From: Nisaea sediminum
Lineage (GTDB): Bacteria > Pseudomonadota > Alphaproteobacteria > Thalassobaculales > Thalassobaculaceae
Direction of reading: 5' to 3'
DNA length: 64,000 nucleotides
NCBI RefSeq assembly: GCF_014904705.1
Contig: NZ_JACZCQ010000011.1
Location: forward strand, 62,001-126,000
Shown here piece by piece: positions 6,644 to 30,609 of the stretch. The notes under the pieces were generated by a model. That model had not been told where the DNA came from. It made no database searches and worked only from the letters and a program-made list of their open reading frames with translations. Position numbers and translations under genes: made by a program. Position 1 is the stretch's first letter, and the number at the start of each line of letters is the position of its first letter.

Positions 6644-9085
6644 ATGCGCTGGGTACTGATCCTTTTCTCGACCGTTCTGCTCGGCGGCCTTGTCGCGGTC
6701 GGCGGCGTGCTCTGGGGCCTGCACCATTTCGGACGCGGGCTGCCGGACTACAAGCAGCTGGCGGATTACGAGCCTCCGGTGATGACCCGCGTGCATGCCG
6801 GCGACGGCCGCCTGCTCAGCGAATATGCCCGTCAGCGCCGGGTCTTCGTGCCGATCGAGGCAATGCCCCGGCGCGTGATCAAGGCGTTCCTCTCCGCCGA
6901 GGACAAGAATTTCTACAGCCATCCGGGGATCGACTTCTTCGGCCTCGCCAAGGCGATGATCGACAACGTTCGCAACCTTGCGCAGAACCGCCGGCCGCGC
7001 GGCGCCTCCACGATCACCCAGCAGGTGGCGAAGAATTTCCTTCTGACCAACGAGGTCTCGATCGAGCGGAAGGCGAAGGAAGCGATCCTGGCGCTCCGCA
7101 TCGAGCGGGCGATCAGCAAGGACCGGATCCTCGAACTTTATCTGAACGAGATCTATCTCGGCCTGCGCTCCTACGGTGTGGCAGCCGCCGCGCTGAACTA
7201 TTTCGACAAGAGCCTGGACGAACTGACGATCGCGGAGAGCGCCTATCTCGCCGCCCTCCCGAAAGCGCCGAACAACTATCATCCGGTGCGTCAGCACGAT
7301 GCCGCCCTCGTCCGCCGCAACTGGGTGATCGGACAGATGGCGGAGAACGGCTTCATCAGCGTCGCGGATGCCGAGCGGGCGAAGGCCGAACCGCTGACGA
7401 TCCATGAGCGCTCCGTCACCGAGGTTGCCGAAGCGGATTACTTCGCCGAGGAAGTCCGGCGCTGGCTCGTCGACCGTTTCGGCGAGGATGGACTTTACGA
7501 AGGCGGTCTTTCGGTGCGGACAACGCTCGACCCGAAACTGCAGCGCATCGCCGACGAAGCCCTGCAGTGGGGGTTGATGCATTACGACCGGCGGCACGGC
7601 TGGCGCGGCGCGCTCGGCAAGATCGACATCGTTGCCGGCTGGGGCGATGCGCTCGACGCTTTCGCCGTTCCCCCGACCGCGCCGGCGGAGTGGCAAAAGG
7701 CGCTCGCGCTGATCGTCGAGGACAAACGCGTGCAGGTCGGCTTCCCGGACGGCTCGTTCGGCGAGATTCCACTTGCCGAACTGACCTGGGCCCGTCCCTG
7801 GCGGGAAGAGCAGCGCCTCGGCCCGAGCGTCAGGAAAGCGTCCGATGTGCTTCAGCCGGGTGACGTGATCTTCGTCGAGCCGATCGAGAAGGACGACGAC
7901 GGCACCCCCTACCCGGACGGAACCTTCACCCTGAGACAGATCCCGAATGTCGACGGCGGTATTGTCGCGATGGATCCCCATACCGGGCGCGTTCTGGCCC
8001 TCTCCGGCGGCTGGAGCTTCAAGGAGAGCCAGTTCAACCGGGCGACCCAGGCCAACCGGCAGCCGGGCTCCTCCTTCAAGCCCTTCGTCTATCTCGCGGC
8101 GCTCGAGAACGGCTTCACCCCAGCCACCCGCATCCTCGACGCGCCTTTCGTAATCGATCAGGGCCCCGGCCTCGGCAAGTGGAAGCCGGCCAACTACACG
8201 AAGGAATTCTACGGTCCGAGCCCGATGCGCCTCGGCATCGAGAAATCGCGCAACCTGATGACCGTGCGGCTGGCCCAGACCATCGGCATGGATCTGATCA
8301 CCGACTATGCCCGCCGTTTCGGCATCGACGACAACATGCCGAAACACCTCTCCATGGCGCTCGGCGCCGGCGAGACCACCCTGCTGAAGATGACCACCGC
8401 CTATTCGATGCTGGTCAATGGCGGCAAGCGCGTGGTGCCGAGCCTGATCGACCGTGTTCAGGACCGTAACGGCCGGACGATCTACCACCACGATACCCGC
8501 GAGTGCGCCGGCTGCGTCGCCGCGCGCTGGCGCGGCGAGCCCGCGCCGACCATTCCGGACACCCGCGAGCAGGTCGCCGACCCGGCCTCCGCCTATCAGA
8601 TGGTCAGCATGCTCGAGGGCGTGGTCCAGCGCGGCACCGGCCGGCGGATATCGACCATCGGCAAGCCGCTCGCCGGCAAGACCGGAACGACCAACGACAA
8701 TATCGACACCTGGTTTGTCGGGTTCACGCCCGATCTCGCGGTCGGCGCCTTCGTCGGGTTCGACCAGCCGAAGACCCTCGGCCCGCGCGACACCGGCTCC
8801 AATGTCGCCGCCCCGGTCTTCAAGAAATTCATGGAGGAGGCGCTGGTCGACAAGCCGTCGATCCCGTTCCGGATCCCGCCGGGCGTCCGCAACGTCCGGA
8901 TCAATGTCGCGACCGGCGCGCTGGCCCAACCGGGCGACAGGGACGTCATGGTCGAAGCCTTCAAGGCCGGCACCGAGCCGACCGGCGAGAGCGAGATCGT
9001 GTTCGGCGGCGACGCGGCCGGCTGGGACGCCCAGGGCCCCGGCAACACCGCGCCGGTTGCGGGACGCGGCTCCGGGCTTTATTAA
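6644..9085 (+). CDS. mrcA: Penicillin-binding protein 1A, bifunctional transglycosylase/transpeptidase
   Basis: Class A PBP of 813 residues that polymerises glycan strands and cross-links peptides at the inner-membrane surface. A membrane anchor lies at residues 2-26. The GT51 domain follows, with EDKNFYSHPGID (catalytic Glu near 86) and GASTITQQVAKN. An OB-like insertion is present mid-protein. The transpeptidase motifs are SSFK (nucleophile S476, K479), SRN, and KTGTT. ATG 6644 starts just before the anchor. prfB begins 44 bases after the stop on the same strand. Confidence 0.96.
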   Translation: MRWVLILFSTVLLGGLVAVGGVLWGLHHFGRGLPDYKQLADYEPPVMTRVHAGDGRLLSEYARQRRVFVPIEAMPRRVIKAFLSAEDKNFYSHPGIDFFGLAKAMIDNVRNLAQNRRPRGASTITQQVAKNFLLTNEVSIERKAKEAILALRIERAISKDRILELYLNEIYLGLRSYGVAAAALNYFDKSLDELTIAESAYLAALPKAPNNYHPVRQHDAALVRRNWVIGQMAENGFISVADAERAKAEPLTIHERSVTEVAEADYFAEEVRRWLVDRFGEDGLYEGGLSVRTTLDPKLQRIADEALQWGLMHYDRRHGWRGALGKIDIVAGWGDALDAFAVPPTAPAEWQKALALIVEDKRVQVGFPDGSFGEIPLAELTWARPWREEQRLGPSVRKASDVLQPGDVIFVEPIEKDDDGTPYPDGTFTLRQIPNVDGGIVAMDPHTGRVLALSGGWSFKESQFNRATQANRQPGSSFKPFVYLAALENGFTPATRILDAPFVIDQGPGLGKWKPANYTKEFYGPSPMRLGIEKSRNLMTVRLAQTIGMDLITDYARRFGIDDNMPKHLSMALGAGETTLLKMTTAYSMLVNGGKRVVPSLIDRVQDRNGRTIYHHDTRECAGCVAARWRGEPAPTIPDTREQVADPASAYQMVSMLEGVVQRGTGRRISTIGKPLAGKTGTTNDNIDTWFVGFTPDLAVGAFVGFDQPKTLGPRDTGSNVAAPVFKKFMEEALVDKPSIPFRIPPGVRNVRINVATGALAQPGDRDVMVEAFKAGTEPTGESEIVFGGDAAGWDAQGPGNTAPVAGRGSGLY

Positions 9086-23577: not shown

Positions 23578-26500
23578 TCAATGGAAATCCCGGCTGACCA
23601 CACGCAGGTCCGGTTTCATGTTGCGGGGATGGGTATGGAGGGGCCGGGACGGCTTGATCTGCTCCGGATTGGGTTTCGGCGCGGGGGGCAGTTTCGGGCG
23701 CGGCGGCTTCTGGCGATAATCCTCCTGCCCGCGCGCGACCTCGTCGGCATTGGCGATCGCGCCCTTGAAGCCCGCCTCGTCGACCGTCCCGTCGGTCAGC
23801 CAGCCGAGACGCCAGGTCAGGTCCTCCAGCGTCTCGACCACGACATGGATCACCCGCCCCTCGCGCTGCACCAGGCCGGTAACACCGAGGAACTTGGCGC
23901 CGAGCACGATCCGCCGGAAGGCCTCGAACTTGTCCGGCCAGACGATCAGGTTGGCGACCCCGCTCTCATCCTCCAATGTAATGAAGATCACGCCCTTCGC
24001 CGTCCCCGGTCGCTGGCGCACCAGCACGAGGCCGCCGAGCCGCACCCGGCGCCCGTCGCGGGTACGGTCGAGTTCCTCGCAGCGAATGCAGCCGTCGCCA
24101 TCGAGGCTCGGCCGCAGCAGGGCGACAGGATGGGCCTTCAGGGAAAGATGGAGCGCGGCGTAATCCTCCACCACCTGCTCGCCCAGCGGGGCGGGAGGCA
24201 GCAGTACCGCCGCCTCCCGCGGCGTGAAAGGCTTCTGTTCCCGCGCCTCGGCGGCGAGGAACAGTGGCAGGCCGTCACGGTCCCGCTCCGCTCGGACCGG
24301 ACCGGTGACCGCGCGAGCGAGTCCGCGGACCGCCCAGAACACCTCGCGGCGAGCAAGCCCCATGGAGGCGAAGGCATCGCCGCGCGCCAGCACCTCCAGC
24401 ACCGCCGGCGTGATCCCGGCACGGCGCCAGAGCGCGCCCGGATCGCTATAGCCCTGCCCCCGGCAGGCGACGATCAGCTCCGCCTCCTCCGCGCGCATGC
24501 CCTTGATCTGCCGGAGCCCGAGGCGGACCGCCTGCCCGCCCCTGCCGTCCGGCTCGAGATCGCAGTCCCAGCCACTCCGGTTCACGTCCGGCGGCAGCAC
24601 GGTGACACCGTGCTCGCGCGCGTCACGCACGATCTGCGCCGGGGCATAGAAGCCCATCGGCTGGGAGTTCAGGAGGGCGGCGGCGAAGACCGCCGGATAG
24701 CGTCGCTTGAACCAGCTCGAGACATAGACGAGGAGCGCGAAGCTCGCGGCATGGCTCTCCGGAAAGCCGTAATTGCCGAAACCCTCGATCTGGCGGAAGC
24801 AGCGCTCGGCGAAGTCGCGCTCGTAGCCGCGCGCGACCATGCCCTCGATCATCTTGTCCCGGAACTGGCCGATCTGCCCGGTCTTCTTGAAGGTCGCCAT
24901 GGCGCGGCGCAGCCGGTCAGCCTCCGACGGAGTGAAGCCGGCGGCGACGATGGCGATCTTCATCGCCTGCTCCTGGAAGAGCGGGACGCCGAGGGTCTTG
25001 CCGAGCACCCCGCGCAGTTCCTCCGAGGGGAACTCGACCGGCTCGATACCGTCGCGGCGGCGGAGATAGGGATGCACCATGTCACCCTGGATCGGGCCGG
25101 GACGCACGATCGCCACCTCGACGACGAGATCGTAGAAGCAGCGGGGGCGGAGACGCGGCAGCATGGCCATCTGCGCCCGGCTCTCGACCTGGAAGACGCC
25201 GAGACTGTCTCCCCGGCAGAGCATATCATAGACGCCGGGATCCTCCGGCGGGACCGTGGCGAGGTCGTGCGCGAGACCGTAATGCCGCTGCAGCAGCTCG
25301 AAGGCCTTCTTCATGCAAGTCAGCATGCCGAGCGCCAGCACATCGACCTTCAGCATGCCGAGCGCGTCGAGATCGTCCTTGTCCCATTCAATGACAGTGC
25401 GGTCCTGCATCGCCGCGTTCTCGATCGGCACCAGCTCGTCGAGCCGTCCCCGGGTGATGACGAAACCGCCAACATGCTGGGAGAGATGGCGGGGAAAGCC
25501 CATGAGCTGGCGGGTGAGGTTCATGGTCATGGCAAGCCGCCGGTCCGACGGATCGAGCCCGACCTCGCGGATCCGCTCGTCCGCCACCGCGTCGCCGTGC
25601 CGGCCCCAGACCTGGGAGGAGAGCAGACCGATCACGTCCTCGGACAGCCCCATCGCCTTGCCGACATCGCGGAGCGCGCTGCGCGAACGGTAGCTGATCA
25701 CGGTCGCCGCCAGCCCGGCCCGCTCGCGGCCGTATTTCCGGTAGATGTACTGGATCACCTCCTCGCGCCGCTCATGCTCGAAATCGACGTCGATATCGGG
25801 CGGCTCGCCCCGCTCCTCGCTGACGAAGCGCTCGAACAGCAGATCGGCGCGCGAGGGATCGACCGCGGTGATGCCGAGGCAGTAGCAGACGGCGGAATTG
25901 GCTGCGGAACCTCGCCCCTGGCAGAGGATGTCCTGGCTGCGGGCGAAGCGGACCATGTCGTAGACGGTGAGGAAGTAGGGCGCGTAGTTCAGTCGCGCGA
26001 TCAGGCCGAGCTCGTGGCGGAGTTGGGCCGCGACTTTCGGCGGGACACCGTCCGGATAGCGCTCCTCCGCGCCCTCGAAGGTGCGCAGCTCCAGCTCCTC
26101 CTGCACAGGGCGGCCGTCGGGCGAGATCTCGTCCGGATATTCATAGGCAAGCTCGTCGAGAGAGAAGTTGCAGCGCCTGGCGATCTCCAGGCTGCGGGCG
26201 ATCGCCTCCGGACAGTCGCGGAAGAGCCGCGCCATCTCCCCCGCTGGCTTCAGATAGCGTTCCGCATTGGCATCGAGCCGCCAGCCGGCCTCGTCCACCG
26301 TGCAATGCTCGCGGATACAGGTCAGCACGTCCTGCAGCGGGCGGCGCTCCGGCAGGTGGTAATGCGCGTCGTTGGTCGCGACCAGCGGGAGATCCGCCGC
26401 TGCGGCATGCGCCGCAAGACGACGGAGCCGTGCCGCGTCGCCGCCATGATAGAGCAGCGTGGCCGCGAGCGAGACGCGGCCGGGGAAACGGGTTCCCCAG

Positions 26501-26916
26501 AAGTGGAGATCTTCCGGACGGATAGCGGCCAGATCCCTTGGCGGGATCAGAACCAGATCATGTCCTTCGGCGTAGTCCGTGACATCGGCGCGGCAGAGCA
26601 GGCAGTCGCCCTTCTCCGCCCGGCGCTTGCCGAGGCTGAGCAGGCGGGACAGCCGGGCATAGGCCAGGCGGTCGTGCGGGAAGGCGAGCAGCTCCCCGCC
26701 CTCCTCCAGCACCAGCCGGGCGCCGACAAGGAGTTTTATGCCATGGCTCTTTGCCGCGATATGCGCCCGGACGACCCCGGCGAGGCTGTTGCGGTCGGCG
26801 ATGGCGACGGCGGCATGGCCGAGCCGTGCCGCCATCTCAACCAGCTCCTCCGGATGCGAGGCGCCCCGGAGGAAACTGAAATTGCTCGTGACCTGAAGCT
26901 CGGCATAGCCCTGCAT
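23578..26916 (-). CDS. dnaE2: Error-prone DNA polymerase DnaE2
   Basis: The polymerase of the SOS mutasome, which extends past lesions. The 1112-residue protein starts with the PHP domain (YAELQVTSNFSFLRGASHPEEL). The catalytic palm has three acidic residues in PDIDVDFEHE near residue 373, with GRGSAANS before it. The C-terminal third includes the OB-fold (RVRLGGLVLVRQRPGTAKGV). Start MQGYAEL is chosen over an upstream in-frame extension that is Arg-rich and not family-like. It lies 31 bases downstream of imuB on the same strand and shares the SOS promoter at 28593-28617. Confidence 0.95.
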   Translation of the reverse strand: MQGYAELQVTSNFSFLRGASHPEELVEMAARLGHAAVAIADRNSLAGVVRAHIAAKSHGIKLLVGARLVLEEGGELLAFPHDRLAYARLSRLLSLGKRRAEKGDCLLCRADVTDYAEGHDLVLIPPRDLAAIRPEDLHFWGTRFPGRVSLAATLLYHGGDAARLRRLAAHAAAADLPLVATNDAHYHLPERRPLQDVLTCIREHCTVDEAGWRLDANAERYLKPAGEMARLFRDCPEAIARSLEIARRCNFSLDELAYEYPDEISPDGRPVQEELELRTFEGAEERYPDGVPPKVAAQLRHELGLIARLNYAPYFLTVYDMVRFARSQDILCQGRGSAANSAVCYCLGITAVDPSRADLLFERFVSEERGEPPDIDVDFEHERREEVIQYIYRKYGRERAGLAATVISYRSRSALRDVGKAMGLSEDVIGLLSSQVWGRHGDAVADERIREVGLDPSDRRLAMTMNLTRQLMGFPRHLSQHVGGFVITRGRLDELVPIENAAMQDRTVIEWDKDDLDALGMLKVDVLALGMLTCMKKAFELLQRHYGLAHDLATVPPEDPGVYDMLCRGDSLGVFQVESRAQMAMLPRLRPRCFYDLVVEVAIVRPGPIQGDMVHPYLRRRDGIEPVEFPSEELRGVLGKTLGVPLFQEQAMKIAIVAAGFTPSEADRLRRAMATFKKTGQIGQFRDKMIEGMVARGYERDFAERCFRQIEGFGNYGFPESHAASFALLVYVSSWFKRRYPAVFAAALLNSQPMGFYAPAQIVRDAREHGVTVLPPDVNRSGWDCDLEPDGRGGQAVRLGLRQIKGMRAEEAELIVACRGQGYSDPGALWRRAGITPAVLEVLARGDAFASMGLARREVFWAVRGLARAVTGPVRAERDRDGLPLFLAAEAREQKPFTPREAAVLLPPAPLGEQVVEDYAALHLSLKAHPVALLRPSLDGDGCIRCEELDRTRDGRRVRLGGLVLVRQRPGTAKGVIFITLEDESGVANLIVWPDKFEAFRRIVLGAKFLGVTGLVQREGRVIHVVVETLEDLTWRLGWLTDGTVDEAGFKGAIANADEVARGQEDYRQKPPRPKLPPAPKPNPEQIKPSRPLHTHPRNMKPDLRVVSRDFH

Positions 26917-26947: not shown

Positions 26948-28561
26948 TCAGGAGAAGATCCCGTGCAGGAACCAGCTTGGCGCCTCGCCCCGTTCGGCGA
27001 GCCCGTCCCGATAGAGCCAGAACCGGCGGCCGTCCCCGTCCTCGACGCGGAAATAGTCCCGGGTCGACATCGAGGCATCGTCGCTGCCGTCGCGCCACCA
27101 TTCCGGCGCCAGACGTTCCGGACCCGCGGCATGGGCGACCCGGTAGTCCGCACCGCGCCAGCGGAAACGGGCCGGGGGATGATCCGGCAGCAGGGCCGTC
27201 GCCTCGACCGGTTCCGGGCGCCGCATCAGGCGCACCGGGCGGGCCGCCCGTTCCGGCGCCGGGGGACGCACATTGGTCCAGGTCAGCGCCTTGCGGCCCG
27301 GCCGCCCCGCGCTCCGCTTCTCCGCCCGTTCGGGCAGATGGCTCTCGACCGGCTGCAGACGATGCACCGCGTCGACACCGAGCCGGTTCGCCAATCGGTC
27401 GCCGAGATCGGTGACCGCGTCCCGGTCCCGCATCTCGGTGCTGCCGAGCGCGGCCTGCACGCCTTCCGCACGGTCGCCCTCGAGCATCTCCGCCAGCATC
27501 ATGTCGATGCCGAAGCCCGGATCGAGCTTGTCGAAATGCTGCACCAGCAGGCGGAACAACGTGTCCGCCTCACGGCAGGCCCGGCTGGTCCCGGCGCTGA
27601 CCTGCAGCACCTCCCCGTCAACCCGGAAGAAACGCAGACGCACCCGCCGGGCGCCGGCCTGTTCGCGTTCCAGACGGCGGCAGAGCGCGCCGAGCGTCTG
27701 CCGCGCGGCGCCTTCCAGATCCTCGCGCAGGGCAATCGGTTCGGCGAAGGCGATGCGCTCCTGGAACGGCTCCTCCGGCAGTTTCATGTCGAGCGCCGTT
27801 GCCCGCTCCCCGAGCGCCCGGTCGAGCGCCTCGATCAGCCCCACGCCGAACCGGCTGGCGAGCGGGGCCCGCGGCTGGTCGAGCAGCTGCGCGATACGGC
27901 GCAGCCCGACCCGGTCGAGCGCCTCGACCGTTGCCGGCGAGAGCCCGAGCGCCGCCACCGGCAGCGCCCCGAGCGCCAGCCGGAGCCTGCCTTCCGGCAC
28001 CAGGGTCAGGAGGGGGGCGGAGAAGCGGGCGACAGCCCGGGCGGCGAGAGGGGCGTCCGCCACCGCGAGCCGGGCACTGAAGCCGAGCCGGTTCAGGGCT
28101 GCAAGGCAGTCGCGCCCGAGCGCCTGCTCCTCCGTTGCGAGATCCGCCGCCCCCTGGCGGCGGAAGAGATGGACACATCCAGTGATATCGAGCGTAAGGC
28201 CCGCACTGCCACCGTCGCCCGCGAAAGGCGCGGCGGTGCTGTCGACCGCGACCATCGGCGTATAGCGCTGACACCAGGCGGCCAGCCGTTCCAGCTGTTT
28301 GCGGTCCGCAGCCGGGTCCGCCTCCGTTACCGACAGATCCGGGATCATGGCGCGGGCATCGGCCAGCGGCCGGCCGACCGCGATCCCCTGGAGCGCCGCC
28401 GCCTGATTGACCGCCGCGACGGTTTCCGTGCCGACGAGGCGCCGGGTCAGGACCGCGGGCCGGGCGTCGTCCGCCACTGCGACAGTATTTCCGGCCGCAT
28501 CCCGGCGGCGCCAGTCGAAGGAAAAATCCGGAATGTAGAGATAGAGGAATCGCCGTGCCAT
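26948..28561 (-). CDS. imuB: ImuB, catalytically inactive Y-family polymerase partner of DnaE2
   Basis: A 537-residue Y-family-related protein. In the family it joins ImuA and DnaE2 to the beta clamp, and it is itself inactive. The N-terminal strand is LYLYIPDFSFDW. Active Y polymerases have an acidic D-x-D/N-x-F motif at this place, and the pattern here fits the known loss of catalysis in ImuB, although I have not aligned it. Helix-hairpin-helix-type region about 215-250, then little-finger-like sequence and an ImuB-type C terminus (RFRWRGADYRVAHAAGPERL). Preceded by a sigma-70 promoter with a LexA box; dnaE2 follows. Confidence 0.93.
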   Translation of the reverse strand: MARRFLYLYIPDFSFDWRRRDAAGNTVAVADDARPAVLTRRLVGTETVAAVNQAAALQGIAVGRPLADARAMIPDLSVTEADPAADRKQLERLAAWCQRYTPMVAVDSTAAPFAGDGGSAGLTLDITGCVHLFRRQGAADLATEEQALGRDCLAALNRLGFSARLAVADAPLAARAVARFSAPLLTLVPEGRLRLALGALPVAALGLSPATVEALDRVGLRRIAQLLDQPRAPLASRFGVGLIEALDRALGERATALDMKLPEEPFQERIAFAEPIALREDLEGAARQTLGALCRRLEREQAGARRVRLRFFRVDGEVLQVSAGTSRACREADTLFRLLVQHFDKLDPGFGIDMMLAEMLEGDRAEGVQAALGSTEMRDRDAVTDLGDRLANRLGVDAVHRLQPVESHLPERAEKRSAGRPGRKALTWTNVRPPAPERAARPVRLMRRPEPVEATALLPDHPPARFRWRGADYRVAHAAGPERLAPEWWRDGSDDASMSTRDYFRVEDGDGRRFWLYRDGLAERGEAPSWFLHGIFS

Positions 28562-28592
28562 GATCGTCTCCCGCTATGAGCGAGAGCATATT

Positions 28593-28617
28593 GTTCTCGT
28601 TTTGTTCTTATTGTCAA
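28593..28617 (-). promoter_or_regulatory. LexA-controlled promoter of imuB-dnaE2
   Basis: A perfect alphaproteobacterial LexA box, GTTC-TCGTTTT-GTTC, occupies 28593-28607. A consensus -35 element TTGACA on the minus strand lies at 28617-28612, so the box falls in the core promoter. The best -10 match, AACAAT, follows a 16-base spacer at 28595-28590 and is weak. Repressor binding would block imuB and dnaE2. Confidence 0.9.
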
Positions 28618-28662
28618 CACGGTGATGAAACGTGCGTTTAAGCTTCTGAAATGACGGATGTT

Positions 28663-29145
28663 TCAGGCGCCGCTCAGGCCGAATTGCCAGACCAGCCAGA
28701 GCGCGGCGACCAGACTGACCCCGACGACGCCCCAGAGCGCCAGCTTGCGCAGCAGGACCCGGCGCTGGGCACCGCGCTGCTGGCGCTCGATCCGCTCGCG
28801 CCGCTCGGCCTCGATGGCGCTGAGAAAGCGCAGCAGGGTATCGATGGACTCGCCCTCGAGCGAATGGAACTGGGCGGCGAAACGGCCTCCCTCGTCCGGC
28901 CGTCGCACGACATCCGCGCCGAAGGAAAACTCGATCGTCTCGCGTGTGCCGCGCCAGTATATCGTGCCCTCCAGCGGCGAGCTCACATGCCCGCCTTCAT
29001 CCGGCAAACGGGCGAAAAAGCCGCCGATGGAAATATCGATGAGCGGAATCTTACGGCCCTGCACGGCGGCATAGGCGCCGCTCACGGACCAGCGTCCGTG
29101 CCGCCGCCTCTCCTGCCCGATCGCTGCCTCGGCGACAGCACTCAT
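28663..29145 (-). CDS. PilZ domain protein with C-terminal membrane anchor
   Basis: A 160-residue probable cyclic-di-GMP receptor. The PilZ signature is present: basic ERRRHGR near residue 12-18 and DISIGGFF (about 37-44), which is D-x-S-x-x-G. The remainder of the barrel ends near 100, a charged Arg-rich helix follows, and a single hydrophobic helix (LALWGVVGVSLVAALWLVW, about 134-152) anchors it to the inner membrane. The gene stands between imuA and imuB, whose neighbourhood in other genomes is normally unbroken. It has no LexA box upstream, so any link with the SOS response is only positional. Confidence 0.85.
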   Translation of the reverse strand: MSAVAEAAIGQERRRHGRWSVSGAYAAVQGRKIPLIDISIGGFFARLPDEGGHVSSPLEGTIYWRGTRETIEFSFGADVVRRPDEGGRFAAQFHSLEGESIDTLLRFLSAIEAERRERIERQQRGAQRRVLLRKLALWGVVGVSLVAALWLVWQFGLSGA

Positions 29146-29304
29146 TCCCCGGCCTCCATTTGCCTCGGTGACAGTCTACACCATCGCCGCCGAGAAAACT
29201 GCTGGCGATGATCTTTGCCACATCCCGGACAAGAAACAGCCACACAGCATTTTTCAACACAGAATCAATAGTTACGGCAGATGAAGGTAAATGTACATAT
29301 GGGG

Positions 29305-30120
29305 TTACGCGGCAGCGCTTCGTCCCGCCGCGGGCCTCGCTTCCGGCACCTCTTCCGGCACCGAAACGAACTCTTCGGCTTCACGGAATCGGCCGTCCGA
29401 CATAGCCCAGAGCAGCTGCCAGGCGCCGGACCGGCCGCCGCGCAGACGTTCGAGCGAGACCGACCAGACAGGATCGAGACTCCCGCCCGAGGGTGCGGCG
29501 GCGATGCGCCAGCGGCTCTCCGCCGCCCCGGTCGTGACCGTGCTCGCAAGCGGACGAAGCAGGAAGCCGGAGACCCCGCTGGCCTCGGCGGCGAGCTGCA
29601 GGCGCCGCTCCGCCACCCTTCCGGCCTCTCCCGGACGCGCGGGCCCCAGTTCCGCGACGACGGCGGCGAGCCCGCCGCAGCGGAGCCCCTCCTCCATCGC
29701 CCAGAGCCGGTCGGTCTCGTCCCGCGCGCGGACGAACAGCACCCGCTCCGGATCGAGGCCGAGGGCTTTCAACCCCCAGCCGTAGGGCGCGCCGCCGAAC
29801 ATGTTCGCCTCCCGCGCGCACCAGAGGATCTCCCCGCCCCGGCGGGCCACCGGAGAGGCGAGCAGACGGACCAGCAAGGCCGCGGCAAAACCAAAGACGC
29901 TGCCGTCGCGCAACTCGCTGCGGGCCTCGCCGACAAGCTCATGCACACGCCCCGCGGAAAGCCCGCCGCCCAGATGACCGTCCAGCGCGGCATGGCCGAG
30001 CGAAAAGCGCGCGCCCCGCTCCGCCTCCGCGCCGCCGCGCTCAATGGCCCGGACCCGCGCACGCAGAGATGCCAAATCGGCCCGTTGCCCCGTTTCGTCC
30101 CTGTGCTTAGGATCGCCCAT
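29305..30120 (-). CDS. imuA: ImuA, RecA-like accessory protein of the mutasome
   Basis: A 271-residue protein of the ImuA/SulA-RecA-like family that acts with ImuB and DnaE2 in damage-induced mutagenesis. Family features include RFSLGHAALDGHLGGGL near residue 35, GRVHELVGE, and a C-terminal ALD/RFREAEE-like region. The N-terminal start MGDPKHRDE is chosen because a ribosome-like AGGTG lies just upstream and the longer frame is not family-like. It has its own LexA-controlled promoter and is separated from imuB by the PilZ gene, leaving imuA as a separate SOS unit. Confidence 0.9.
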   Translation of the reverse strand: MGDPKHRDETGQRADLASLRARVRAIERGGAEAERGARFSLGHAALDGHLGGGLSAGRVHELVGEARSELRDGSVFGFAAALLVRLLASPVARRGGEILWCAREANMFGGAPYGWGLKALGLDPERVLFVRARDETDRLWAMEEGLRCGGLAAVVAELGPARPGEAGRVAERRLQLAAEASGVSGFLLRPLASTVTTGAAESRWRIAAAPSGGSLDPVWSVSLERLRGGRSGAWQLLWAMSDGRFREAEEFVSVPEEVPEARPAAGRSAAA

Positions 30121-30134
30121 CCAATCACCTGAAT

Positions 30135-30174
30135 GTTCCTGATTTGTTCTAGGATGTCCCCGCTCATGAGTCAA
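30135..30174 (-). promoter_or_regulatory. LexA-controlled promoter of imuA
   Basis: A perfect LexA box, GTTC-CTGATTT-GTTC, occupies 30135-30149. On the minus strand TTGACT (30174-30169), a 17-base spacer and TAGAAC (30151-30146) form a good promoter whose -10 overlaps the box. Its -35 lies within the first codons of the divergent thioesterase gene (start 30166). Confidence 0.92.
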
Positions 30175-30609
30175 TCGGCCGACGCGCCCTCCTCCGACAC
30201 GCCGCCCTCTCTCGAGACCATGTACGGCTTCAATGCCGATATCGGCTTCCGGCTCACCGAATGGACCGACGGCTATGCCAAGATGGAGCTCGACCTCACC
30301 GAGAAGCACCTGAACCGCAGCGGCATCCTGCATGGCGGCGTGCTGGCGACGATGATCGACGCGGTCGGCGGCTATTGTGGCGTCTGGGTGCCGAAAGGCA
30401 GCGACAAGAAACGCGCCCTCACGCTCTCGCTCACCACCAGCTATCTCGGTCAGGCCAAGGAGGGCACCATCGTCGCCTACGGCAAGCGCCGCGGCGGCGG
30501 CAAGTCGGTCTTCTTCGCCACCTGCGAGGTCTATAATCCAGAGGGCGTGCTCATCGCGATGGGTGAAGGCACCTACAAGATCCGCCAGAGCAAGGGCCCG
30601 ATCGGCTAA
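30166..30609 (+). CDS. PaaI-type hotdog-fold thioesterase
   Basis: A 147-residue hotdog-fold protein, probably an acyl-CoA thioesterase. LHGGVLATMIDAVGGYCG (about 55-72) is the PaaI-family active-site helix, where HGG and the Asp are the usual catalytic positions. The later strands TLSLTTSYLG and ATCEVYN complete the fold. Earlier ATGs at 30133 and 30154 exist. ATG 30166 is preferred because AGGA lies 11 bases upstream and because the LexA box occupies the region before it. The gene is divergent from imuA and might be weakly LexA-affected, although the box is positioned for imuA. Confidence 0.85.
   Translation: MSQSADAPSSDTPPSLETMYGFNADIGFRLTEWTDGYAKMELDLTEKHLNRSGILHGGVLATMIDAVGGYCGVWVPKGSDKKRALTLSLTTSYLGQAKEGTIVAYGKRRGGGKSVFFATCEVYNPEGVLIAMGEGTYKIRQSKGPIG

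Follow-up and report, generated by a model that had tools for sequence, protein, structure and literature searches.

Division of the imu cassette into parts that each carry an SOS box has been described before (PMC3901139): almost all configurations of the cassette exist, including those with each gene at its own locus and with its own SOS box, and in Mycobacterium tuberculosis the cassette is split into imuA'-imuB and dnaE2, which carry separate SOS boxes. The locus described here resembles the imuABC cassettes of Alphaproteobacteria, of the Caulobacter and Sinorhizobium type, in its three genes, in their order and orientation, and in a LexA-type box before imuA, but differs from those contiguous cassettes in that imuA and imuB are parted by a PilZ-TM gene and a second LexA box. 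We consider it probable that an ordinary mutasome cassette has here been broken into two LexA-repressed units, and that the genus keeps a still-linked form of a split that has been finished in sister genera.

Layout of the cassette

The window, by which we mean the whole 64,000-nucleotide stretch of DNA that was analysed, carries on its minus strand imuA, a PilZ-TM gene, imuB and dnaE2 in that order; the coordinates given in the initial annotation were confirmed. The features, following the minus strand, are:

30163..30609, plus strand: hotdog thioesterase gene, divergent from imuA (PF03061, TIGR00369)
30135..30149, minus strand: LexA box GAACAAATCAGGAAC before imuA, a perfect GTTC-N7-GTTC with the motif found at lexA, kept in five of five genomes of the genus
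29305..30120, minus strand: imuA, 271 aa (NCBIfam ImuA NF033429, 5.8e-18)
28663..29145, minus strand: PilZ-domain gene, 160 aa (Pfam PilZ PF07238, 28.2 bits against a cut-off of 22.5)
28590..28617, minus strand: sigma-70-like promoter TTGACA-N16-AACAAT, a 10/12 match, over the imuB LexA box
28593..28607, minus strand: LexA box GAACAAAACGAGAAC in the imuB promoter, a perfect GTTC-N7-GTTC, kept in five of five genomes of the genus
26948..28561, minus strand: imuB, 537 aa, Y-family polymerase-like mutasome subunit (Pfam IMS PF00817 and DUF6504 PF20114)
23578..26916, minus strand: dnaE2, error-prone C-family polymerase (NCBIfam NF004225, 1428.7 bits against a cut-off of 939)

Homologues of imuA, imuB and dnaE2 are all present, which identifies the locus as an ImuA-ImuB-DnaE2 mutasome cassette. 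The imuA product scores below the equivalog cut-off of NF033429, and its identity is clear from the position of the gene and from its homologues, which were found in 36 of 61 relatives. The IMS match of the imuB product is weak, and searches of the PDB returned no useful match for ImuB and only weak Alg44 matches for PilZ. The dnaE2 reading frame most likely starts at 26916 (MQGYAELQ), about 30 nt past imuB and slightly beyond the interval 26948-30174 of the initial annotation. Rather than imuA being followed directly by imuB behind one LexA box, as in a single-operon imuABC, the two genes are 740 nt apart, with pilZ and the second box in the gap, and each part has a LexA box of its own, as in a split imu cassette. 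Directly past the imuA stop, at 29289-29304 on the minus strand, the sequence CCCnATATGTACnTTT is nearly invariant in five of five genomes, and the rest of that gap is variable.

LexA boxes and the imuB promoter

Both perfect boxes reported earlier lie exactly where they had been placed. The bare 8-base pattern is by itself weak evidence, and the weight rests on the position and conservation of the boxes. GTTC-N7-GTTC matches four times in the window, against about 1.8 expected by chance, and one of the four (the box at 7133) falls within a penicillin-binding-protein gene. This chance expectation is what speaks for reading the imuB box as a fortuitous match that leaves imuB-dnaE2 without LexA control of its own. 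Against such a reading, the box occupies the identical place in five species, overlaps a promoter, and is also found upstream of imuB in unlinked relatives, so that its likelihood is close to negligible; chance boxes were rejected on conservation and position. When the pilZ-imuB gap is aligned across the five genomes, both GAAC half-sites are invariant and most other columns are variable. The -35 element directly ahead of the box reads TTGACA in four of these genomes and TTGGCA in the fifth, and the sigma-70-like site is the sole one in 8 kb, where 0.7 would be expected.

The genome has 13 matches to the longer form GTTCN5TTGTTC and 0 to a reversed control, and in every one of the five genomes of the genus the box GAACCAAAGTAGAAC stands immediately upstream of lexA itself. 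Because the boxes are conserved, the longer motif is enriched, and a box of the same type stands at lexA, LexA control of both units is the natural reading of the sequence, and the two LexA-controlled units proposed in the initial annotation are supported to that extent. The first unit would consist of imuA, possibly with pilZ, and the second of imuB-dnaE2, both bound and repressed by LexA. Upon DNA damage, RecA-stimulated cleavage of LexA would release both promoters and co-induce the two units; the mutasome subunits would still be produced together, and a single transcript would no longer be needed.

The box at 30135-30149 also lies 13 nt upstream of the ATG of the thioesterase gene (30163-30609, plus strand), and the divergent thioesterase-imuA pair recurs in genera g3 and g12; on these grounds the thioesterase may be under SOS control too. 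Other GTTCN5TTGTTC sites are found at G000:C1:185762, C4:63603, C6:109614, C6:407605 and C6:690432, and the genes near these five resemble GFA, MraZ, a PEP-mutase/isocitrate-lyase type enzyme, a MazG-like protein and a radical SAM protein.

Relatives within the family

The family was sampled with 36 genomes from 12 genera. The order imuA-pilZ-box-imuB-dnaE2, together with both boxes, is found in five of five genomes of the window's genus (g1). A PilZ homologue also lies behind imuA in G006 (g3) and G009 (g6), where imuB-dnaE2, preceded by its own box, is located on a different contig. Genera g7 and g11 possess a boxed imuB-dnaE2 with no imuA upstream, the imuA of g7 residing on a separate contig with its own box, and the two genes are also unlinked in g9, where a one-mismatch site precedes imuB. 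Contiguous imuA and imuB, the latter without a box, are found in g5, g10 and two g12 genomes. One genome, G024, has imuA, imuB and dnaE2 each split into several frames.

Orthology of the PilZ gene was judged on 30-42% identity and on there being one strong match per genome in most genomes. The best homologue in g5, g4 and one g2 genome is away from the mutasome, beside an isopropylmalate-dehydrogenase-like gene, and in the remaining g2 genomes and in g12 it occupies other places outside the mutasome; no homologue was found in g7 or g9. Relatives with the PilZ gene outside the mutasome had been named at the outset as evidence that would count against the proposed split, and such evidence was found in part: the closest homologue does lie outside in several relatives, a location that fits movement of pilZ into the cassette. 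A recent insertion, one of the origins suggested in the initial annotation, was rejected, since all five species of the genus share the order and two further genera also have pilZ behind imuA, which would place the insertion before the origin of the genus.

The rpoB species tree did not resolve the deeper nodes that join the separated genera, so a tree of ImuB and DnaE2 was used. In that tree a branch sets the family's separated loci apart from g5 and g12; support for this single-separation branch is modest (80/62), and the alternative grouping of all contiguous family members was not rejected (AU p 0.158). The simplest order of events, because pilZ lies elsewhere in the contiguous genera, would begin with insertion of pilZ between imuA and imuB in an ancestor of g1, g3 and g6, before the genus arose. 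The imuB gene would then have retained or acquired a LexA promoter of its own, and imuB-dnaE2 would subsequently have left in g3 and in the group of g6, g7, g9 and g11, with the PilZ homologue staying behind imuA in g3 and g6. The reverse order, with imuB-dnaE2 rejoining the cassette, is less simple, as it would require rejoining exactly behind pilZ in g1. At loci L090 and L114 (genus g2) and L111 (G031), imuB groups with other alphaproteobacteria, and because of this grouping these cassettes were probably replaced by transfer.

Separation and the imuB box across Alphaproteobacteria

Among the matches listed, 112 alphaproteobacterial imuB loci were compared, drawn from the family itself, from a class-wide sample obtained by an ImuB scan (mainly other families among the matches listed) and from named genomes; an imuB box was scored when a perfect box lay within 300 nt upstream. 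Contiguous imuA-imuB, presented as the rule in the earlier description, accounts for 87 of the 112 loci among the matches listed. None of these 87 contiguous loci has a perfect box of imuB's own, versus 20 of 25 separated loci (Fisher p 8e-18 for loci among the matches listed, uncorrected for their shared ancestry), and two of the five separated loci without a perfect box have a one-mismatch site. On supported branches there are four independent pairs, in which the box went with separation in one to three and never against it, too few for significance in a phylogenetic sign test.

The genes found between imuA and imuB differ among lineages. A reversed RidA gene lies there in G046 and G221 (f12/f88), and a reversed pair of small lipoprotein genes in G044, G165, L182, L222 and L232 (f10 and relatives). 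Reversed, related small lipoprotein genes are also seen paired between imuA and a boxed imuB at L109 and L159, as at L182, L222 and L232. Forcing the family's separated loci and the f12/f88 loci into one clade was rejected (AU p 1e-55). Because one clade is rejected and the intervening genes differ (PilZ, RidA, lipoproteins), separation appears to have arisen more than once, at least twice independently, unless cassettes have re-fused.

The class-wide pattern bears on whether the locus is read as one transcript or two. Read-through from imuA via pilZ into imuB is possible, since no terminator-like site is predicted on the coding strand of the imuA-pilZ or the pilZ-imuB gap. A single SOS transcript of imuA-pilZ-imuB-dnaE2 could thus persist, with pilZ SOS-induced and the second box just boosting imuB-dnaE2, as the codirectional genes and the imuA-pilZ adjacency retained in three genera would also allow. 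The gaps of 159 and 101 nt, however, are long for an operon, and contiguous imuA-imuB never has an imuB box among the matches listed, a pattern that points to a need for the second promoter after separation; we regard a persisting single transcript as a credible but less likely account.

The PilZ gene

The PilZ protein has a hydrophobic C-terminal stretch, a probable TM helix, and bears the sequence features of a c-di-GMP receptor, namely the domain match and, in alignment, the RxxxR and DxSxxG motifs. The protein is 68-95% identical to the window copy among the five species of the genus, and dN/dS for pilZ within the genus is 0.07-0.23, indicating purifying selection similar to that on imuA. 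The gene lacks a separate LexA box and may be transcribed from the promoter of imuA, given that no terminator-like site lies between.

Whether the PilZ-TM protein is a working SOS partner, coupling c-di-GMP or membrane state to mutagenesis, is a question raised by the purifying selection, by the c-di-GMP motifs left intact in the copies of this genus and by the imuA-pilZ adjacency in three genera. Such a role is distinctly unlikely, however: g5, g4, g2 and g12 have the homologue at another location and g7 and g9 yielded none, unrelated genes occupy the same spot in other lineages, and the G009 copy has lost the final G of DxSxxG. A functional imuA-pilZ unit, in which a membrane-anchored c-di-GMP receptor would be damage-induced with ImuA and would connect error-prone repair with the c-di-GMP or surface state of the cell, is very unlikely. 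Because pilZ is placed elsewhere in relatives and unrelated genes take its spot in other lineages, we infer that the PilZ protein is a bystander for mutagenesis. Among the titles and abstracts of the literature on PilZ, SOS and LexA that were seen, none concerned a PilZ gene in a mutasome, and one paper that was checked reports no PilZ gene for its organism.

Comparison with known systems

Because the LexA site of imuB occurs only where the gene is parted from imuA, among the matches listed, selection for SOS control of all mutasome subunits is implied. The locus thereby provides a still-linked example of the break-up of an SOS operon, and the genus with pilZ in between is a natural test case of whether the second promoter frees imuB-dnaE2 from dependence on the first. 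Split cassettes of the M. tuberculosis type likewise have mutasome parts in separate LexA-controlled units, but here it is imuA that is parted from imuB-dnaE2, and the parts remain neighbours, separated by a single codirectional gene. The combination of a second LexA site and inserted genes has a precedent in the ruvCAB operon of Vibrionaceae, which has a second, internal LexA site and was later interrupted by inserted genes (PMC3323433). The upstream part of ruvCAB lost SOS control, whereas both parts of the cassette described here keep their boxes (PMC3323433).
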